Source of the DNA: Nitrospira sp. KM1
GTDB taxonomy: Bacteria > Nitrospirota > Nitrospiria > Nitrospirales > Nitrospiraceae
Assembly (NCBI RefSeq): GCF_011405515.1
Contig: NZ_AP022671.1
Span: forward strand, 3,844,001-3,908,000
Direction: 5' to 3'
DNA: 64,000 bases
Below the pieces are notes generated by a model. The model worked only from the letters and a program-made list of their open reading frames with translations. It was not told where the DNA came from and ran no database searches. Positions within the stretch are counted from its first letter, which is position 1, and each line of letters opens with the position of its first letter. This document shows, in pieces, positions 7,601 through 63,986 of the stretch. The position numbers and the translations under genes were made by a program.

Positions 7601-7628
7601 ATTAAGACCCGACCAGGGGTTATTCGTC
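7601..7628 (+). promoter_or_regulatory. ECF-type promoter, T2-specific copy 1
   Basis: ATTAAGAC, 16 bases, CGTCTA, followed by AGA. An identically spaced copy lies before the T2 receptor (9249-9276). The likely transcription start is only a few bases before ATG 7636. I infer autoregulation of this sigma gene. Confidence 0.65.
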
Positions 7629-9215: not shown

Positions 9216-9248
9216 GCGTTCAGCCAACGCTTGTCCTTCACCATTCCA

Positions 9249-9276
9249 TTAAGACTTTGTCCTGCTCCGTTCGTCT
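9249..9276 (+). promoter_or_regulatory. ECF-type promoter, T2-specific copy 2
   Basis: ATTAAGAC, 16 bases, CGTCTA, then AGA, identical in layout to 7601-7628. It lies 65 bp before the receptor start and is the probable sigma-T2 promoter. Confidence 0.65.
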
Positions 9277-16381: not shown

Positions 16382-16505
16382 AACTGGGGTCAGTTCTTGA
16401 CTTTGCATGTGGTAAAGACTCGGACCTGCTGAGGAGAATGTGATGCGGCTTCGATCGCCGTCTGAATTTTCGAGACTCGCGACAGGGAGATTCGAAAGCG
16501 AATCG
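16382..16505. repeat. Duplicated 3' end of the RAYT element, copy 2
   Basis: Matches copy 1 with scattered substitutions; covers the last codons of the transposase (stop at 16390 on the - strand) plus the terminal AACTGGGGTCAGTTC word. Confidence 0.85.
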
Positions 16506-17331
16506 CGACGGTCTGCAGCGGTTCATTCGCCACGCGCCGCAGCAAGTATACCGCTGTGTGATAGGCCTCGCGGTGTGAACGCTCGAGGACGGCATGCACC
16601 GGTAATCGATACGTGGTGGCAACGCGCTCGAGGACTTCGTCTGGAGAGAGACGGGTGGGGCAGGTTTGAAGAGCGGGAACGTTGATCAGCGGCTTCCCTT
16701 GAACGAGTCGTTCGATGCGTTCACGGAAACTGAGGCTGCCAAGAAAGATTTGGCCTCGCAGGTCCTTCCACGGTGACGGCTGGTGAAGCCCTTCGGCAAC
16801 GAAGCGTCGGTAAGCGCTCCGAGCGGTTGATGTGTTGCGGTCGAAGAGGGACAGCACTGCAGAGACGGCAACCCAGTCTGGCGCGTCTTGCATGCCAGCG
16901 GTGGCTCGATAACTACTCCACGGCCACACCCCTGCCTCCGGCACCATGCCGGCTCGCACCGGATTCAACACGACATAACGGCAGAGTTCCTGGAGGTAGG
17001 GCTCCTTTTCCACAAGCAGACTTTTGAACCGGCCTTGCAGCAGGTGTCCCACGCGTTGATGGCCGCGATTGAACCATTGGGTGTAGGTGCCATGGAGTCG
17101 CCGGAGGCCACGACTGAGATTTGGCTCAGGCGTTTCAATCACGAGGTGATAGTGGTTCCCCATCAAGCAGTAGACGTAACAGTGCCAGCGCTGTTGCTGG
17201 ACCTCACGACTGAGTAGGCGGATAAATTGTTGCCGATCGCCGTCATCAAGGAAGATAGGTTGTTGAGCATTACCGCGCGCGGTGATGTGGTAGAGCGCGC
17301 CGGAAAATTCGAGGCGGAGCGGGCGGGCCAT
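16390..17331 (-). CDS. REP-associated tyrosine transposase (RAYT, Y1/HUH family)
   Basis: 313 residues. N-terminus MARPLRLEFSGALYHITARG is diagnostic; the HUH metal-binding motif is H60-Y61-H62 in CLMGNHYHLVIET; candidate catalytic tyrosines lie in YLQELCRYVVLNPVRAGMV (112-129). The C-terminal helix-turn-helix-like part (NEPLQTVAIRFRISLSRVSK) probably binds DNA. RAYTs act as single-strand nickases on palindromic repeats. Full length, opposite in direction to the triads, and bracketed by inverted words (CTGGGGTCAGTTCTTGAC on the left at 16250 and 16383; its complement at 17364-17380), so this may be a recent, still mobile unit. Confidence 0.92.
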   Translation of the reverse strand: MARPLRLEFSGALYHITARGNAQQPIFLDDGDRQQFIRLLSREVQQQRWHCYVYCLMGNHYHLVIETPEPNLSRGLRRLHGTYTQWFNRGHQRVGHLLQGRFKSLLVEKEPYLQELCRYVVLNPVRAGMVPEAGVWPWSSYRATAGMQDAPDWVAVSAVLSLFDRNTSTARSAYRRFVAEGLHQPSPWKDLRGQIFLGSLSFRERIERLVQGKPLINVPALQTCPTRLSPDEVLERVATTYRLPVHAVLERSHREAYHTAVYLLRRVANEPLQTVAIRFRISLSRVSKIQTAIEAASHSPQQVRVFTTCKVKN

Positions 17332-22208: not shown

Positions 22209-22724
22209 ATGACCTCGGCAGACATCGAACAGCTCTATCGTGAACATCAACCCACGTTGGTGCGCTGGCTCGCGCGTCTCGTCGGGTGTCGGGAAACAGC
22301 GGCCGACCTGGCGCAGGAAAGTTATTTGCGCATCGCCGGAATGGACGGCCTGAAGACGGTCGATCATCCCAGGGCGTTCTTGTTTCGCACGGCCCGGAAC
22401 CTTGCCTTCGACCACCTACGAAAAACGAATACGCGCAGCAAGACAGTCGAGCCGCTCGACGACGCGCTGGATGTTCCCAGTGCGCAACCGTCGGTCGAAC
22501 AAATCTTATTGGATCGCCAACAGGTCGATCTGTTCACCAAGACGCTCGAGGCACTTCCCGACCGGTGCCGGGAAGTCTTTATCCTCCATCGATTCCATCA
22601 TTGTTCGTACGACAGTATTGCCCGGCAACTCGGCATCTCAAAGAGCACAGTCGAGAAGCACATGATCCGGGCATTGCAGCATTGCCGAAAGGCCATGCTT
22701 GAATACGAGGCGTCCAGCCGATAG
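22209..22724 (+). CDS. ECF sigma factor, FecI type (T4)
   Basis: 171 residues from ATG 22209 (GGGGAG about 14 bases before, a second GGGG 5 bases before). Region 2: CRETAADLAQESYLRIAG and LFRTARNLAFDHLRKT; region 4: HHCSYDSIARQLGISKSTVE then KHMIRALQHC. A conventional VEKH recognition helix. It lies directly downstream of the efflux pair but has its own promoter block. Stop TAG at 22724 is followed 16 bases later by the fecR start. Confidence 0.93.
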   Translation: MTSADIEQLYREHQPTLVRWLARLVGCRETAADLAQESYLRIAGMDGLKTVDHPRAFLFRTARNLAFDHLRKTNTRSKTVEPLDDALDVPSAQPSVEQILLDRQQVDLFTKTLEALPDRCREVFILHRFHHCSYDSIARQLGISKSTVEKHMIRALQHCRKAMLEYEASSR

Positions 22725-22740
22725 AGGGATTACCCAAGGC

Positions 22741-23775
22741 ATGCGTCTAGGAGATATACTTCACATTTCCCATACAGGTGGCATGTCGCTGACGATGACG
22801 GACGACCGCTCTCAAGATGAAATGGATTCAATGGGTTCGCCGGCAGGCCCATCCGATGAAGCCATCGTGTGGTTCGCCAGGTTGTCTTCGGGTGAAATGA
22901 CAGACCGGGAACGGACGAAGTTTTGGGAGTGGCGAAACCACAGTGCCGACCACGAGCAGGCATTTGTGGAGATCTGCAGGCTTTGGGATAAGCCCGAATT
23001 GATGGAAGCGGCGGGAGCACTGGCAGGATTAGGCACGCAGGCGGAGAGCCGGAGTATCCCGGAGCGGCATTGGGTTCGGGCGCTCGTAGCGGCGGTCGTC
23101 CTGCTGATTGTGAGTGCCGTGGCATACCAATTCGACGTGCCGATTCGTTTCCAGGCAGACTGGCTCACGGCCGTTGGAGAGCGGCAGACGATTACGTTGG
23201 CGGATGAATCGACCGTCATCCTGAATACGAACTCTGCCATCGCATCCAACTATCGTCCGGACAGCCGCCGGGTGCAGTTACTCAAGGGCGAGGCGATGTT
23301 CAAGGTGCAGCCGGATGCGACGCGGCCATTCTTGGTTGAGCATGGCGGGTTGGTCGCTCGGGCCGTTGGTACCGCGTTTGTCGTGCGGGAGTCCGGCAAC
23401 ATCACCCACGTTTCGGTCGTGGAAGGAGTGGTGTCGGTGGAATCATCGACGGCTTCTCAGGTCACCCTGGAGGCCGGTCAGCGGGCGATCATGAATGCTG
23501 ACGGCAAGATCTCCGTGCAATCGATCGATACCGATGTGACGTTGGCCTGGCTGCAAGGTCGACTGGTATTTGAAAACACGCCGTTCGTTCAAGTGATTGA
23601 GGAAATCTCGCGATATCACGGAGGCTATATCGGCGTCTGGAATCCCTCGCTGGCCGGTCTCGCCGTCAGCGGAACCTACAATCTCTCGAACCCCACCACG
23701 ATTTTAGCGACGTTAACGAAAACTCTCCCCGTACAGATGACCCGTATAACCGACCGGTTCGTCGTCTTCCGATAA
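22741..23775 (+). CDS. FecR-type anti-sigma/sensor (T4)
   Basis: 344 residues if the ATG at 22741 is used; ATG 22783 (AGGTGG just upstream) would give 330 and ATG 22795 is also in frame. The open frame extends back into the sigma gene, which I discount. Anti-sigma domain about 37-82 (DEAIVWFARLSSGEMT, FWEWRNHS), membrane segment about 111-128, FecR domain VGERQTITLADESTVILNTN, end RITDRFVVFR. The overall sequence, especially the C-terminal SRYHGGYIGVWNPSLAGLAV, is close to T1, paralleling the similarity of the T1 and T4 receptors. Confidence 0.91.
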   Translation: MRLGDILHISHTGGMSLTMTDDRSQDEMDSMGSPAGPSDEAIVWFARLSSGEMTDRERTKFWEWRNHSADHEQAFVEICRLWDKPELMEAAGALAGLGTQAESRSIPERHWVRALVAAVVLLIVSAVAYQFDVPIRFQADWLTAVGERQTITLADESTVILNTNSAIASNYRPDSRRVQLLKGEAMFKVQPDATRPFLVEHGGLVARAVGTAFVVRESGNITHVSVVEGVVSVESSTASQVTLEAGQRAIMNADGKISVQSIDTDVTLAWLQGRLVFENTPFVQVIEEISRYHGGYIGVWNPSLAGLAVSGTYNLSNPTTILATLTKTLPVQMTRITDRFVVFR

Positions 23776-23873: not shown

Positions 23874-23917
23874 AATAATTTCTAAACACGATAGAGGTAG
23901 GGCCTCCTTCGTCCGTC
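23874..23917 (+). promoter_or_regulatory. A/T tract and CGTCCGTC block (T4 receptor)
   Basis: AATAATTT from 23874 and CGTC at 23910 and 23914 (36 or 40 bp away). It resembles the 42-bp arrangement of five other receptors but is slightly shorter. Confidence 0.35.
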
Positions 23918-40779: not shown

Positions 40780-40804
40780 TGAAAATTATTCCGGCTCGTT
40801 CGTC
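40780..40804 (+). promoter_or_regulatory. T8-type ECF promoter, copy 1 (before sigma)
   Basis: TGAAAA, 15 bases, CGTC, with GCTCGTTCGTC at the end as in copy 3. It is 206 bp before the sigma start. Probable autoregulatory site of sigma T8. Confidence 0.65.
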
Positions 40805-40868
40805 TCTTAATAATGGGCTTCCGTTGCGGATTCATGATCGATTTCTCGAGACCCAAGCTGGAAGGTAA

Positions 40869-40916
40869 AAATCCGGAAACCGAACATGGTCTTCTGACCA
40901 GGCTTCTGGATAGACT
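40869..40916 (+). promoter_or_regulatory. Shared sigma-gene promoter block (T8)
   Basis: AATCCGGAAACCGAACATGG with GAACAT at 40882-40887 and TAGACT at 40911-40916 (29 bp). The sigma start lies 99 bases after the TA, the longest leader of the set. Confidence 0.6.
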
Positions 40917-41009
40917 CCCCATCCTCAAGCGGTCCTTGCGTATCTGTGCAGGCGCCGGCGATTTGACCTTGAAAGACTAGGACCCGTCTTTTATCTTAGG
41001 AACGATTCA

Positions 41010-41525
41010 ATGGACGACGAGCAGCAGAAGCTTGAGCTCTATCTCAATCATCGGGGCGAGCTGATCAACTATGCAGCCGGTATCGTTGGCTGCCGTATGA
41101 TGGCCGAGGACGTCGTGCAGGAAGCCTATTTACGTTTTCACAGGCCGAGTGAGCGTCCGGATGTCACGACACCCGTTGGATATCTTTTTCGCATCGTCCG
41201 CAATCTGGCTGTGGATTGGGCTCGGCGCCTCGCATTGGAGCGGCGGCATGTCGATATCGTAGAGGACCCGCCGGCCGTGGCCGAAGACCGCGCGACGCCG
41301 GAAGAAACCGCGAGTCATCGGCAGGAGTTGGCGTTGGTGCTGGAGGCGCTGGCGGAGCTTCCCGACCGGACACGCCAGGCGCTGGAGATGCACCGGTTCG
41401 GCGGGATGACATTGGAGGAGATCGGCCGAAGGTTGGAAATTTCTCCGGCTCTGGCTCATGGATTGATCCACAAAGCCTTGATCCATTGTCAGGCGCGGCT
41501 ACGGACGAAAAACCCTGATCGGTAG
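41010..41525 (+). CDS. ECF sigma factor, FecI type, divergent recognition helix (T8)
   Basis: 171 residues. Region 2: CRMMAEDVVQEAYLRFHR and YLFRIVRNLAVDWARRLALE; region 4: GGMTLEEIGRRLEISPALAH then GLIHKALIHC. The VEKH motif at the end of the recognition helix is replaced by AHGL, the strongest departure among the eleven copies. This fits the private promoter TGAAAA-N15-CGTC found three times in this module. An 88-bp gap containing one of those promoters separates it from fecR. Confidence 0.93.
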   Translation: MDDEQQKLELYLNHRGELINYAAGIVGCRMMAEDVVQEAYLRFHRPSERPDVTTPVGYLFRIVRNLAVDWARRLALERRHVDIVEDPPAVAEDRATPEETASHRQELALVLEALAELPDRTRQALEMHRFGGMTLEEIGRRLEISPALAHGLIHKALIHCQARLRTKNPDR

Positions 41526-41531
41526 CCAGAA

Positions 41532-41556
41532 TGAAAACAGCGGGGACATGTTCGTC
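41532..41556 (+). promoter_or_regulatory. T8-type ECF promoter, copy 2 (before fecR)
   Basis: TGAAAA, 15 bases, CGTC, preceded by GTT as in the other copies. It fills the unusual gap between sigma and fecR and would let the sensor be made from its own promoter. Confidence 0.65.
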
Positions 41557-41613
41557 GATACAGTATGAGGCGAATCGCTTTTGACGTGAAAGGGCGACAT
41601 CATTCTTATTGAG

Positions 41614-42615
41614 ATGACTGAAGAAGAAACGTCCCGGCAGGCGTTGGATTGGCTCATTGCGCTTCACGATCGGCCGGACGATCACGACATACGTGAGCGG
41701 TTCGAGGTATGGCTGACTATTAACGAGGCCAACGGAAAAGCCTGGGCCGACGCATGGCGACTGTGGAAGCTGATCGGCGAGACGCCTCCTGCGCATGCCG
41801 ATGCATGGGCGCCGAGGCCGGCTTCATCGATTCAAATCGATTCACCCGCCGTCGTGCCCGATCGAGCGAACAGACGAAGCAGCCGGCATATTCGCTATTG
41901 GCGGCCGGCAGCCCTGGCAGCGGGCCTGGCGGCCTGTTTGTTCTTTGCGCTTCCCAATATTCGAATCTACTGGCACGCCGATCATCGCACGGGAATCGGG
42001 GAATCAGCTCAAGTGACGCTCAGCGACGGCAGCATCATGCATCTGGCTGCGGATACGGCCGTTCGCGTAATTCACGATCCGATGACGAGGGGAGTCGAGT
42101 TGCTCAAGGGGGAAGCATTCTTCGAGGTCAAGCCGGATTCGTCACGGCCGTTTCAGGTCAAAGCGTCCGAATGGACGACCACGGTCCTCGGCACGGCATT
42201 CGACGTCAATCTCGGTTCGCAAACGGCATCCGTCGCGGTCGAGCAAGGAAACGTGCGCGTCGACCGTACCGGTGAGGGTCCTTCAGTAGAGCAGTCGCTG
42301 GAGGTTGGAGACTGGATCAGGGTCGAACGGGGTCGCGGCGTCACTGCCCAAGGACATGGCCAACCCTCGCAAGTGGCCGCCTGGCGCCTGGGCAGACTGA
42401 TCGTGAAAAGCCGGTCTATTAGTGACGTGATCGGCGAACTCGAACGTTATCATCGTGGTGTGATACTCGTGACGGATCCTCGTCTGAAAAGCCGTCTTGT
42501 CAGCGGTGTCTATGATCTCCGTCAGCCGATCGAGGCGCTGCGAGCCGTGGTCCAACCACATCGGGCCGTGGTCAGAGAAGTGACGCCGTATCTCATCATT
42601 GTCTCCGCTTCGTAG
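41614..42615 (+). CDS. FecR-type anti-sigma/sensor (T8)
   Basis: 333 residues from ATG 41614. Anti-sigma domain about 8-52 (ALDWLIALHDRPDDHDIRER, FEVWLTIN), Pro/Ala spacer, membrane segment about 96-113, FecR domain IGESAQVTLSDGSIMHLAAD, where LAAD replaces LNTD, and end EVTPYLIIVSAS. The last residues depart from the LTD-type ending of the other sensors. Like the sigma and receptor of this module it is an outlier, so the three genes seem to have evolved together. Confidence 0.92.
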   Translation: MTEEETSRQALDWLIALHDRPDDHDIRERFEVWLTINEANGKAWADAWRLWKLIGETPPAHADAWAPRPASSIQIDSPAVVPDRANRRSSRHIRYWRPAALAAGLAACLFFALPNIRIYWHADHRTGIGESAQVTLSDGSIMHLAADTAVRVIHDPMTRGVELLKGEAFFEVKPDSSRPFQVKASEWTTTVLGTAFDVNLGSQTASVAVEQGNVRVDRTGEGPSVEQSLEVGDWIRVERGRGVTAQGHGQPSQVAAWRLGRLIVKSRSISDVIGELERYHRGVILVTDPRLKSRLVSGVYDLRQPIEALRAVVQPHRAVVREVTPYLIIVSAS

Positions 42616-42656
42616 GTCAGACTCCCAAAAAGTTTGTGCGTTCTATCAAACACCTC

Positions 42657-42681
42657 TGAAAAAGTTCCGCGCTCGTTCGTC
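42657..42681 (+). promoter_or_regulatory. T8-type ECF promoter, copy 3 (before receptor)
   Basis: TGAAAA, 15 bases, CGTC; eleven bases up to the CGTC (GCTCGTTCGTC) are the same as in copy 1. It lies 62 bp before the receptor start. Confidence 0.65.
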
Positions 42682-42742
42682 GCTTGAATTGAGAGCTGCA
42701 CGGTGGAGTGAGCGCCGTGAAGGATTCAAACAAGGAGCGCAC

Positions 42743-45313
42743 ATGAACGTGTCCATACGAACGCACCGGCGGCTTGCCGGGACAATGATGAGAAGATTGG
42801 GCCTGCTCTGTGCGGTGTCGATGAGCATGGTCGTACCGGGCTTGGCTGCACCGAACGCGACGACTCACGCAACGGCAAAGCAGACGCTAGTCGCTCAAGC
42901 CAACGTGGCACGACCGTTCGATATTCCCGCTCAACCCTTGGAGGACGCCTTGGCGACGTTCGGTCTCCAATCGGGTCTTCAAGTGACTGTGGATTCTGCG
43001 CTCGCGTCCGGCGTGACGTCAGAGTCGATGCAGGGGAATTATGTACCGCAGGACGCCTTGCAGCACTTGCTGCAGGGAACAGGACTGACCTACCGTTTCA
43101 CCAGCCCTGACACGGTCATCGTCGAGCGCGATTCCTCGTCCGGCATCGTGCCGGGCGTGATGGGAGCTGCGGCCGCTGGTGCCGCGGCAGGAGCAGCCGC
43201 TGCCTCCAACGGCGACTCTTCCGGCGGCATGGCCGGCCAGAAGCCGATCAAAGTGCCCGAGATCGTCGTAAAGGATGTGAAACATCGTGAGGAATTGCCG
43301 CCGGAATATCCGGGAGGGGATGTCGCTACCGGCGGTAGGCTCGGTGTCTTAGGGAACCGCGACATCATGGACACGCCGTTTAACCAAACCAATTACACTT
43401 CGAAAGTGATTCAGAACCAGCAGATTCGCTATATGGCCGATGTCCTCAATAACGATCCGACGGCGCGCGCGAGCGCCTCTGAATCCACCGGCGCGGACGA
43501 CTTCAGCATCCGCGGATTTGCCGTTAATAACCAGGACATTCTCTTCAATGGCCTGTACGGCGTCGCACCTTCATTCTTCAACTCCATGATGGCTGAATCG
43601 ATCGAACGCGTTGAAGTGCTGAAGGGGCCGTCGGCTTTACTCAGCGGAGTCGCTCCGGGCGGCAGTATCGGGGGCATGATCAATTTGGTGCCGAAGCGTG
43701 CTGGGCTCGAACCCCTGACCCAATTCACCGGCACTTATATTTCAAGCACGCAGTTCGGAGGACATGCCGACCTCTCCAGGCGTTATGGTTCGGAGAAGCA
43801 GTTCGGCGTTCGCCTCAACGGTGTCTACCGAACCGGTGACACGGCCATTGACAATCAATCTCGAGAATCTGCGTTGATGGCACTAGGGCTAGATTATCAG
43901 GGTAAGAAATTTCGTCTGGCAGCAGACCTCGGGTATCAGTATCAGAACATACAGGGCATGCGAGACTTCACGACGGTCGTGGCAGGAGTGCCAGTTCCCC
44001 AACCACCCAACGTCCGGAGCAACTATGACGGTCCATATGATTTCAGCAAGCCGACGGTCTATTACGGTACGTTGCGCGGTGAATATGACTTGACCGACAA
44101 CTTGTCGGCGTTCGTTGCCGCAGGCGGCAGCGAACGGAGTACACGCTACAGCTTGGTGAACCGGACGATCATCAATCCTCAAGGCGATTTGTCAGCTGCC
44201 AACTTTGCCAGCTTGAATGCCGACCGGACGTCCGCCTGGACAGTAGAAACCGGCCTGCAGGGTCGCTTCGCCACGGGCCCCGTGAAGCATCAGATGGTCT
44301 TGGCCTACACCACTCTTCACAGGGACTGGCGGCGTGCCAGTGTCCCGATTCCCCGGCCCGCATCGAACATCTACAATCCGAATTTCGGACCGGCACCGAA
44401 TTTGGCATTGCAGCCGGATCCTAATTATGGGAAACCGTTGCAAGAGGCGGTGCTTTCGGGCGCCACGTTGGCGGACACGCTCTCCATCCTCGATGAACGG
44501 GTGCAATTGACGGCGGGGGCACGTTTTCAGATGATCGACATACAGCAATTCAACTTCACGACAGGCGTCAGGACCTCCAATTACGAAAAAGACAAGGCCA
44601 CACCTATGGTTGGTTTGGTCGTCAAACCCTGGAAGCACGTATCGCTCTACGCCAACTACATCGAAGGTTTGCAGCAAGGTCCTACGGCTCCACTGACTGC
44701 AGCCAATGCCGGCGAGGTCTTTGCGCCTTTCGTGGCTAAGCAATACGAGGTCGGCAGCAAGGTTGACTTCGGCCGCTTCGGCACGACCTTAGCGTTTTAT
44801 CAGATTGCCCAACCGACCGGCTTCGTCAATCCAACAGCCAACATCTTTGGGGTAGATGGTGAACAGCGTCATCGCGGCATGGATTTTAATGTCTTTGGTG
44901 AGGTGACAGAGGGGGTTCGGTTACTGGGCGGCGCGGCCTATATCGATTCGGAATTGACCAAGACGCAAGGCGGGGTCAACGACGGTCACAGAGGAATAGG
45001 GGTCCCCACGTGGCGGTTAGTACTGGGCGGGGAATGGGATACACCCTTCCTTCCTGGATTTACCGTTTTTGCCCGTGGCACTCGCAATAGCTCCATGTTT
45101 CTAGATGCGGCCAACACCCAAGAAATTCCAAGTTGGGCAAGACTGGATCTCGGCGCACGCTACATGTTCCTCCAACCGAACGGAAAGCCAGTGACGATCA
45201 GGGCCAACGTGACCAACGCTCTCAATAGTGGTTATTGGGATAGTAACACTTTCGGCCAACTGACATTGAGCGATCCACGAATATTCTGGCTGTCGGCGAC
45301 CGTCGATTTCTGA
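42743..45313 (+). CDS. TonB-dependent siderophore receptor with STN domain, divergent type (T8)
   Basis: 856 residues from ATG 42743 (AAGGAG 5 bases upstream). Signal peptide with hydrophobic core LGLLCAVSMSMVVPGLA; STN FDIPAQPLEDALATFGLQSG; long Ala/Gly linker (MGAAAAGAAAGAAAASNG); TonB box KVPEIVVKDV. Plug is unlike the main group: MDTPFNQTNYTSKVIQNQQI, VLKGPSALLSGVAPGGSIGG. Ends WLSATVDF. The decayed receptor at 63360-63986 is its closest relative here (MVGLVVKPWKHVS against MVGLVVKPWHHVS), and the 15-residue debris near 56.1 kb also ends LSATFDF. Confidence 0.94.
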   Translation: MNVSIRTHRRLAGTMMRRLGLLCAVSMSMVVPGLAAPNATTHATAKQTLVAQANVARPFDIPAQPLEDALATFGLQSGLQVTVDSALASGVTSESMQGNYVPQDALQHLLQGTGLTYRFTSPDTVIVERDSSSGIVPGVMGAAAAGAAAGAAAASNGDSSGGMAGQKPIKVPEIVVKDVKHREELPPEYPGGDVATGGRLGVLGNRDIMDTPFNQTNYTSKVIQNQQIRYMADVLNNDPTARASASESTGADDFSIRGFAVNNQDILFNGLYGVAPSFFNSMMAESIERVEVLKGPSALLSGVAPGGSIGGMINLVPKRAGLEPLTQFTGTYISSTQFGGHADLSRRYGSEKQFGVRLNGVYRTGDTAIDNQSRESALMALGLDYQGKKFRLAADLGYQYQNIQGMRDFTTVVAGVPVPQPPNVRSNYDGPYDFSKPTVYYGTLRGEYDLTDNLSAFVAAGGSERSTRYSLVNRTIINPQGDLSAANFASLNADRTSAWTVETGLQGRFATGPVKHQMVLAYTTLHRDWRRASVPIPRPASNIYNPNFGPAPNLALQPDPNYGKPLQEAVLSGATLADTLSILDERVQLTAGARFQMIDIQQFNFTTGVRTSNYEKDKATPMVGLVVKPWKHVSLYANYIEGLQQGPTAPLTAANAGEVFAPFVAKQYEVGSKVDFGRFGTTLAFYQIAQPTGFVNPTANIFGVDGEQRHRGMDFNVFGEVTEGVRLLGGAAYIDSELTKTQGGVNDGHRGIGVPTWRLVLGGEWDTPFLPGFTVFARGTRNSSMFLDAANTQEIPSWARLDLGARYMFLQPNGKPVTIRANVTNALNSGYWDSNTFGQLTLSDPRIFWLSATVDF

Positions 45314-45979: not shown

Positions 45980-47043
45980 TCTCCGGGGACAGCCTCGGCG
46001 GCTGGTTCGTCACAAGAAGAAGGGGTATAGTCGGCTCTGCCATGACGGGTCAGGAACCAAAGGCCTATTCAGCGCCGAAGACAGAGGGCGCCCGCCTCCT
46101 GATGAAGGAGGCGACCGATTGGTTCGTGCGCTTGGGCGCCTCGGATGTCACGTCGCATGAGCGTGTGGAATTCGAACGGTGGCGTCTGCAAAGTCAAGCT
46201 CATGAACAGGCCTTCCGCGAAGTCACTTCGCTTTGGGATGAGTCGGAGCTCGAAGCCGCTGCTCTGCACACGAAAGCGGCTCTTGCCGAGATTCCGTACC
46301 GGCCCCGGCCGGGTCTGCGCGTCTCATGGGCATGGGGTTGGGGAGCAGCGGCGGCCATGCTTCTCTTGTGTCTCGGCTGGCTCGTGCACGACGCCATGTG
46401 GTTCAGATGGCAGGCGGATTTCATCACCGCGACGGCCGAACAACGGATGATCGAGCTTCCGGATCGTTCTACGGCGTTGCTCAATACCGGCAGCGCCATT
46501 GCGATCGACTTCAGCGGCGGAAGCCGGACCGTCCGCCTGCTGCGCGGTGAAGCGCTGTTCACGGTCCAGCCGGATGCGGGAAAGCCGTTCATCGTAAAGA
46601 GCGGAGCGGTAAACGCTCAGGCCGTGGGCACGGCATTCGCCGTACGGGCCAATGGTCATGATGTGGCCGTCACCGTCACGAGAGGTCTCGTGGACGTGTC
46701 GAGCGACCGGGCACCGGATTCGGCGGTGCGTCTCGAACAAGGGCAACAGGTATTCGCCGGCGATCAGGGAGTGGGCGCCGTCCATGCGGTCGACCTCTCA
46801 ATGGCCGTGGCATGGTCGCGCGGGCAGCTGGTGTTCGTGCGGACCGCTCTGTCCGATGTCCTGGAAGAAGTCAAGCGCTATTATCCCGGTTATGTATTGC
46901 TGTGGTCCTCCAAGGCGCAGCACGTGCCGGTCACCGGCATCTACAAGGTCTCTGATCCCGCTCGGATTCTGAATATTCTCGCAGAATCGCTCCACCTCGA
47001 ACTGACCCGCATGTCCGACCGCGTCATCGTCCTGCACGACTAA
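45976..47043 (+). CDS. FecR-type anti-sigma/sensor (T9)
   Basis: 355 residues from ATG 45976 in the ATGA overlap; Met-23 (46042) is an alternative start that would match other copies better in length. Anti-sigma domain about 43-90 (KEATDWFVRLGASDVT, FERWRLQS), membrane segment about 120-138, FecR domain starting ATAEQRMIELPDRSTALLNT, where the usual VGE is TAE, and end RMSDRVIVLHD. The C-terminal RYYPGYVLLWSSKAQHVPVT resembles T5 and T10. Confidence 0.92.
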   Translation: MISGDSLGGWFVTRRRGIVGSAMTGQEPKAYSAPKTEGARLLMKEATDWFVRLGASDVTSHERVEFERWRLQSQAHEQAFREVTSLWDESELEAAALHTKAALAEIPYRPRPGLRVSWAWGWGAAAAMLLLCLGWLVHDAMWFRWQADFITATAEQRMIELPDRSTALLNTGSAIAIDFSGGSRTVRLLRGEALFTVQPDAGKPFIVKSGAVNAQAVGTAFAVRANGHDVAVTVTRGLVDVSSDRAPDSAVRLEQGQQVFAGDQGVGAVHAVDLSMAVAWSRGQLVFVRTALSDVLEEVKRYYPGYVLLWSSKAQHVPVTGIYKVSDPARILNILAESLHLELTRMSDRVIVLHD

Positions 47044-47128: not shown

Positions 47129-47174
47129 GAGGGGGGACAATGTTTCGCCGTGATCCGTCCTAGGTGGGTGAGAG
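47129..47174 (+). promoter_or_regulatory. Receptor leader block shared by T9 and T1
   Basis: GAGGGGGG, CGTCC at 47156, GGGTGAGAG at 47166-47174, the same words and order as 1415-1462. Candidate sigma-dependent promoter plus a conserved mRNA leader for the receptor at 47205. Confidence 0.4.
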
Positions 47175-58648: not shown

Positions 58649-59203
58649 ATGTTCGACCCAAAACCTGATTTCTGCCCGCATCCATTCACAGATTCACCCG
58701 TCTTCCACGTCTTCACATCATGCGTGAAGGAATTGCGGTCCTTTCTGACGAGAAGATTGGGTTGTCCCGAGACAGCTGCCGAACTCGTGCAAGAAACATA
58801 TATTCGGTTGGCGACGAGACAAGAACAGGATCCGCATGTCAATCCGCGCGCGCTGGTGTTCCGCGTGGCGTCGAATCTTGCGACCGATCATGCGAGACAT
58901 CAGAGCGTCAGAGAGCGGTTTGATGGAGGAACTATCGACGAAGATGCATTGGTGGCCCCCGTTCCGTCGCCGGATGCGGCGCTCGCGGAGGAGCAAGAGA
59001 GAAAACTTCTGAAGCTAGCCATTGCCGAATTGCCGGAGAAACGGCGGATGGTGTTCCTCCTACGCATGTCTCAGGAGCTGTCCTACAGCGAAATTGGGAA
59101 GCGTCTGGGCATATCGGTGAGTGCCGTTGAAAAGCATATCAGCAAGGCCGTCTTGCATTGTCGCGCTCATGTGGAACGCCATCGTGGGAGTCGGGCGGAG
59201 TGA
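58649..59203 (+). CDS. ECF sigma factor, FecI type (T11)
   Basis: 184 residues, the longest copy. N-terminus FDPKPDFCPHPFTDSPVFHV is an extension before the FTSCVKELRSFLTRRLGCPE core. Region 2: CPETAAELVQETYIRLAT and LVFRVASNLATDHARHQ; region 4: QELSYSEIGKRLGISVSAVE then KHISKAVLHC. A 40-bp gap separates it from fecR. Start ATG 58649 is 40 bases after the TA of the promoter block. Confidence 0.92.
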   Translation: MFDPKPDFCPHPFTDSPVFHVFTSCVKELRSFLTRRLGCPETAAELVQETYIRLATRQEQDPHVNPRALVFRVASNLATDHARHQSVRERFDGGTIDEDALVAPVPSPDAALAEEQERKLLKLAIAELPEKRRMVFLLRMSQELSYSEIGKRLGISVSAVEKHISKAVLHCRAHVERHRGSRAE

Positions 59204-63361: not shown

Positions 63362-63986
63362 ACGCCCATGGTTGGGCTCGTTGTGAAGCCGTGGCACCAT
63401 GTATCAGTCTGCGGAAACTACATTGAAGCTCTGCAACAGGGTTCCACGGCACCGCTGACGGCCGCCAATGCAGACGAAGTCTTTGCACCATTTGTCTCGA
63501 AAGGATATGAAGCTGGCGTCAAGGCGGATCTCGGCCGCATTGCCTCCACATTGGCGGCCTTTCAGATCACAAGACCGAGCGCTTTCGTCGACCCTTCGAC
63601 CAATGTCTTCGGCGTTGATGGTGACCAACGCCATCGTGGATTGGAGTTCAGCGTCTTCGGCGAGTAATGGAGGGTGTTCGCCTTCTCGGCGGCACCAGCT
63701 CTATCGACGCCGAGTTGACGAAGACTCAAGGTGGTCACCAGTCGCGTCACACGCCTCCTCGCAATATGTTAATTTTGCAAATACGCAGAAGACTCGAGAA
63801 TGGACCCAATGGGATTTCGGTGCTCGATATCGGTTTGAGCGACCTGGCGGCAAACCGATCACAGTTCGCCTCAATATCGACAACCTGCTCAACACGAACG
63901 CATGGTACGGGGGAAATTTCGCTTCTGGCTGGATCACTGCACGCGATCCACGCACCTTCTTGCTCTCGGCGACCTTTGATTTTTGA
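63360..63986 (+). pseudogene. Decayed TonB-dependent receptor, C-terminal third
   Basis: From about 63360 the frame reads PMVGLVVKPWHHVSVCGNYI and continues with high similarity to T8 residues near its barrel end (ALQQGSTAPLTAANADEVFA; FGVDGDQRHRGLEFSVFGE) until a TAA at 63665. Later parts in other frames correspond to the T8 segments RLLGGAAYIDSELTKTQGG and the last strands, ending in GGNFASGWITARDPRTFLLS then ATFDF at 63986. The signal peptide, STN domain, plug and most of the barrel are missing. It is a remnant of a twelfth module related to T8. Confidence 0.8.

Follow-up and report, generated by a model that had tools for sequence, protein, structure and literature searches.

A FecI-like signaling module of Nitrospira sp. 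KM1 with predicted ECF promoters of one type before its sigma, fecR, and receptor genes

The window analyzed, a stretch of 64,000 nt of the Nitrospira sp. KM1 genome, contains an array of about eleven modules, all on the plus strand, each composed of a FecI-like sigma factor, a FecR protein, and an STN-containing (signaling-domain) TonB receptor. In one of these, designated T8, the word TGAAAA-N15-CGTC precedes the sigma gene, fecR, and the receptor gene (Table 1). We consider it likely that these three blocks are ECF promoters (-35 TGAAAA, 15-bp spacer, -10 CGTC) that are read by sigma T8 and form a self-amplifying loop. The first-pass annotation had proposed that sigma T8 drives its three genes separately. 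For fecR and the receptor this proposal is strongly supported by conservation in alphaproteobacteria and by joint drift of the -35 words, whereas for the sigma gene the case is weaker and comes from one other genome.

Table 1. Features of the T8 module and of other array modules, with positions in the 64,000-nt window (G001 is a congener of KM1)
Feature	Position	Strand	Remarks
Predicted ECF promoter before sigma T8	40780–40804	+	TGAAAATTATTCCGGCTCGTTCGTC; GTTCGTC form; predicted leader of about 200 nt
Predicted ECF promoter before fecR	41532–41556	+	TGAAAACAGCGGGGACATGTTCGTC; same gap in many alphaproteobacterial relatives
Predicted ECF promoter before receptor	42657–42681	+	TGAAAAAGTTCCGCGCTCGTTCGTC; conserved block in G001 and alphaproteobacterial relatives
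Sigma T8, FecI-like ECF sigma factor, PRK07037-like	41010–41525	+	Pfam Sigma70_r2 and r4_2, NCBIfam, tree
fecR, anti-sigma/sigma regulator	41614–42615	+	Pfam FecR, DUF4880
TonB-dependent siderophore receptor with STN, FemA/BauA-like	42743–45313	+	Pfam STN, Plug, barrel; TIGR01783; FemA/BauA
Element GGAAACCGAACATGGTC, then GATAGACT (possible -10)	40875–40891	+	Common to most array sigma genes
Further copies of GGAAWCYGAACATKSYC	11971, 31395, 35778, 45381, 49864, 58574		
A-rich box	About 33003 (M6), 42624 (T8), 60325 (M11)		Also at several other receptors
M2 word ATTAAGAC-N14-TTCGTC before M2 sigma gene	7601–7628	+	Same in G001
M2 word ATTAAGAC-N14-TTCGTCTA before M2 receptor	9248–9275	+	Kept in G001
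M4 word GATAGAGG...CGTC near fecR start	22720–22747	+	Score 7.9; partner at 23890 before receptor
M9 word GGGGACA...CGTC near fecR start	45985–46011	+	Score 7.6; partner at 47133 before receptor

By the criteria of sigma factor, FecR, and STN receptor, T8 can be classed from its sequence as a cell-surface signaling system of the FecI/FecR/FecA type. Because one promoter word precedes both sigma and fecR, it is assigned to a variant of this type and not to the classical E. coli form. Sigma T8 consists of regions 2 and 4 only (Pfam Sigma70_r2, Sigma70_r4_2) and matches the NCBIfam sigma70-ECF model above the cut-off, and the regulator encoded next to it carries the FecR domain PF04773 (score, 80 bits; cut-off, 24). 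The nearest solved relatives of the receptor are FemA and BauA. Its longest possible ORF spans 42599–45313, with the ATG at 42743 as the likely start; the third copy of the word lies within this longest ORF, yet it counts as upstream of the receptor because it is located 5' of the likely start. The receptor gene is followed by the sigma gene of M9, and hemophore or secretion genes of the HasI/HasS type are absent there.

The coordinates and strand given for the three copies by the first-pass annotation were exact, as was the GTT before each CGTC, and one copy does lie inside the sigma–fecR gap, which measures 88 bp as had been claimed (the sigma stop codon ends at 41525 and the fecR ATG is at 41614). 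The first copy is found 230 bp 5' of the sigma ATG. The window contained 4 matches to the word against 0.11 expected, a number observed in none of 100 shuffled windows; the fourth match, at 59128, lies within the M11 sigma coding sequence and ends with GGCCGTC. The genome search that had been proposed returned 19 matches in the 4.51-Mb genome, versus 3 for the reversed pattern, and the ending GTTCGTC was restricted to the three T8 copies. With a relaxed word followed by TTCGTC, T8 was the sole cluster of three in KM1, and the orthologous module was the sole one in G001. A wider regulon was considered and rejected: the 16 other genome matches fall mostly within ORFs, some of them on the opposite strand, and none ends with GTTCGTC, so that no larger T8 regulon is claimed. 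The genome match at 961354 has no ORF of 120 amino acids across the site. Rfam searches around the T8 module retrieved nothing credible, and the number of terminator-like matches around it (5, versus a shuffle mean of 1.9) was only weakly elevated.

As judged from its sequence, sigma T8 is not native to the array but groups with the FecI-like sigma factors of alphaproteobacteria, which would make T8 an incomer. Its best NCBIfam match is PRK07037, and that of the eight other array sigma factors scanned is PRK12527. Among 175 Nitrospiraceae genomes, matches at threshold were retrieved from three, including the source genome; the two other proteins are 82% and 71% identical, and N. defluvii NOB1 is the named relative in the family with a T8 ortholog. 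The next relatives are alphaproteobacterial, with 51 to 57% identity for most of them. In a midpoint-rooted tree, in which the program flagged long branches, the three Nitrospira T8 sigma factors were placed inside the alphaproteobacterial set (SH-aLRT 92), and a long, well-supported branch parted the T8 sigma factors from those of the other modules. The T8 receptor shares about 30% identity with the other array receptors, which, except for those of M7 and M11, show 56 to 73% identity to one another; among the loci fetched, the T8 receptor has its closest full-length matches in alphaproteobacteria (38 to 41%).

Forty alphaproteobacterial loci were fetched by the sigma protein alone and scanned for TGAAAA with up to one mismatch, followed by N15 or N16 and CGTC. 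The word was present at 17 sites in the sigma–fecR gap (4.8 kb) and at 16 in the fecR–receptor gap (7.0 kb), resulting in 33 sites in both gaps together. It was found neither on the reverse strand of these gaps nor on the forward strand of the upstream region, the sigma gene, and fecR in the same loci (75 kb in total). The -35 block was shared between the two gaps of a locus with a mean of 4.12, versus 3.21 after permutation, and 0 of 5,000 permutations reached this value; the test covered 43 loci, Nitrospira ones included, ignores relatedness among them, and left about a quarter unscorable since CGTC was not present in both gaps. The drift is paired: TGAACAT occurs twice in locus L060, CGAAAA twice in L075, GGAAAA with N14 twice in L068, and TTAAA twice in both L064 and L077. 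The conservation of the word in these gaps and the joint drift of the -35 block indicate that the predicted fecR and receptor promoters are an old, ancestral feature of this sigma lineage, which would most simply be read by the module's own sigma factor. Three Chelatococcus genomes (L029/L031/L036) also contain a further TGAAAA-N16-CGTC site (ATTCGTC) about 10 to 12 kb from the sigma module (G176:C11:46215, G178:C4:173357, and G183:C3:467831), possibly marking a further target gene.

The copy before the sigma gene has a different distribution. Within 400 bp before sigma, the T8 word was detected in 0 of the 40 alphaproteobacterial loci, and in N. defluvii it is absent at that place, where one N14 match with one mismatch occurs at -388. 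The G001 ortholog keeps all three T8 sites. That before sigma reads TGAAGA-N15-CGTC, with GTTCGTC intact, and is located at -240 (-230 in KM1); its surroundings have otherwise drifted, the other well-kept stretch being CCGGAAWCYGAACATGG, followed by GATAGACT. Since the site is present in KM1 and one congener and absent from the alphaproteobacteria, autoregulation, closing a positive loop, looks like a Nitrospira addition. Of the three sites, this one is weakest, as only two genomes support it. A small ORF of about 48 codons, seen by eye in the stretch from 40780 to the sigma gene and starting near 40835, was set aside, because the corresponding G001 sequence has diverged too far to indicate conservation of an ORF.

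Sigma T8 is probably not the sole input of its own gene, because a shared element (40875–40891) also precedes it. The element GGAAWCYGAACATKSYC is located directly 5' of most array sigma genes, with a TA-rich -10-like word about 23 nt later, and GGAANCNGAACATNNYC has 9 exact copies in the genome, of which 8 are in the array region, and forms a conserved block in G001. These sigma genes probably have one common regulator or promoter, and the element at 40875 probably sets the starting or basal level of sigma T8. Many receptors, in turn, are preceded by an A-rich box (such as CCAAAAAAAGTTTTAA) roughly 40 bp 5' of the CGTC word, a possible operator or UP element.

Shared bipartite words were also scored between gaps, and same-module pairs were compared with 466 pairs drawn from two modules each (99% quantile of the latter, 6.3; maximum, 6.9). 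Same-module scores were 7.2 to 7.5 for all three T8 pairs and 8.2 for the sigma and receptor gaps of M2; in both M4 and M9 the shared word is that of the fecR and receptor gaps. The score of 6.0 for M10 is only suggestive. Because these same-module scores exceed the cross-module null, T8, M2, M4, and M9 each seem to use a -35 word private to the module, whereas the CGTC -10 is common to them. The M2 word TTAAGAC-N14-TTCGTC has exactly two occurrences in each of the KM1 and G001 genomes, and the fecR-side copy of the M9 word is present in G001 too. With its own word before both sigma and receptor genes, M2 indicates that predicted self-drive is not confined to T8.

Receptor barrels have been swapped between modules and species, and the STN domain and the promoter remain with the sigma factor. 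In the receptor of the G001 T8 module, the STN domain is T8-like (68%, versus 35 to 47% for others), whereas the barrel is of the M2/M3/M5 kind (76% to M2 versus 24% to T8); the G001 M2 module combines an M2-like STN domain (64%) with an M9-like barrel (73%). The N. defluvii T8 receptor is 61% identical in the STN domain and 15% in the barrel. The receptors that show barrel exchange are the KM1 T8 receptor (42743–45313), two in G001 (L042 and L043), and L028. In both G001 modules the promoter word follows the sigma factor and not the barrel; the T8 word, for example, precedes a receptor with an M2-like barrel there. We tentatively suggest that sigma, FecR, STN domain, and private word may form a portable, self-amplifying cassette with an exchangeable barrel, and that the array, with its different -35 words, common CGTC, and shuffled barrels, may comprise some ten parallel switches with little cross-talk. 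An IS200-like Y1 transposase gene (16390–17331, minus strand; Pfam) is located between M3 and M4 and is a possible agent of array rearrangement. The short ORF at 63468–63986 matches no more than the final part of a TonB receptor barrel, below the Pfam cut-off; it is perhaps a receptor remnant.

In FecI systems, the loaded receptor signals via its STN domain and FecR to the sigma factor. In T8, the STN domain of the ligand-bound receptor would signal through FecR, and sigma T8 would be freed or activated; it would then initiate separate starts at the receptor gene, fecR, and, in KM1 and one congener, its own gene, the starting sigma level being provided by the element at 40875. Such a positive loop would coproduce its own regulator, so that the signal may be amplified with ligand present and shut down rapidly once the ligand is gone, with FecR, made in step, providing damping and reset. 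We infer sigma T8 as the reader, the direction of signaling, and the behavior of the loop.

An arrangement similar to that of HasI/HasS, in which function is limited to the promoters of fecR and the receptor, appears unlikely. The copy before sigma would then be without function, either a relic or duplicated from the receptor promoter, and sigma would be expressed from the 40875 element or a sigma-70-type promoter alone. Such an arrangement would agree with the distribution of this copy, missing in the 40 alphaproteobacterial loci and, at that place, in N. defluvii, with the resemblance of the 40780 spacer to that of the receptor site, and with a sigma-70-like match at 40969–40997 (0.7 expected by chance). 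The distance of 230 bp to the start codon speaks against the loop. However, G001 retains the site at a similar distance with GTTCGTC intact amid drifted surroundings, and M2, independently, carries a private word before the sigma gene that is also kept in G001.

Since the CGTC -10 is common to most modules, the T8 sites could also be real ECF promoters that are read by another array sigma factor or by several of them. We regard this cross-talk as improbable to a greater degree still: the -35 words are private to modules, and the T8 word accompanies T8-like sigma factors in alphaproteobacteria not known to possess the paralogs of Nitrospira. The word is short and was picked after reading the sequence, which leaves room for chance, but the probability of this is minimal given that the count in the window was never reached by shuffling and that independent loci have the same word in the gaps where it was predicted. 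The alphaproteobacterial loci refute chance for the copies before fecR and the receptor. We favor the self-amplifying loop read by sigma T8.

In textbook FecI-type systems, the start signal read by the sigma factor is found at the receptor only. According to a 2022 review, iron-uptake sigma factors do not activate their own gene or that of the anti-sigma factor, HasI–hasS being the exception (PMC9249621). The HasI/HasS/HasR heme signaling system of Serratia marcescens resembles T8 in its FecI-like sigma factor, FecR-like anti-sigma factor, and STN receptor, and HasI drives both the anti-sigma gene hasS and the receptor gene, as predicted for T8; hasI, however, is reported not to be autoregulated (PMC9249621), whereas the T8 sigma gene has, on sequence evidence, the copy at 40780 that is kept in G001. 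The -35 word of Has is also different (TTTACGGGTTT region), and the Has system includes hemophore genes, whereas T8 is directly followed by the next sigma module. The ferric citrate system FecI/FecR/FecA of E. coli has the three protein types, the domain layout, and an ECF promoter before the receptor in common with T8, but fecIR is Fur controlled and reported not to be autoregulated (PMC9249621), whereas T8 is predicted to have a separate ECF promoter for fecR and, very probably, another for the sigma gene. HemI of Stenotrophomonas (PMC12772443) and VreI of Pseudomonas (PMC4971064) are not autoregulated either. In Sinorhizobium meliloti, mapping placed putative transcript starts upstream of fecR as well as of the receptor gene of FecI/FecR/SMc04205, but no promoter motif was recognized there (PMC6180224). 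The available excerpt of an article on Leptospira interrogans describes LIC_12757/LIC_12756 as an ECF sigma factor and FecR-like partner with positive autoregulation of LIC_12757, similar to that predicted for T8, but that excerpt does not describe separate ECF promoters for anti-sigma and receptor genes (PMC12155086). Since iron-uptake sigma factors are reported not to autoregulate and HasI–hasS is only a partial precedent, the predicted combination of own promoters for sigma, fecR, and receptor appears new with respect to the open-licence literature, an earlier description elsewhere being possible.

Taken together, many alphaproteobacterial loci of a single sigma lineage are predicted to have anti-sigma promoters, which provides a testable general prediction. 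Full self-drive is predicted in Nitrospira, against the rule reviewed for iron-uptake sigma factors (PMC9249621). The array also offers a natural set of paralogous sigma–promoter pairs that bears on the choice of -35 words and on the avoidance of cross-talk among parallel switches.
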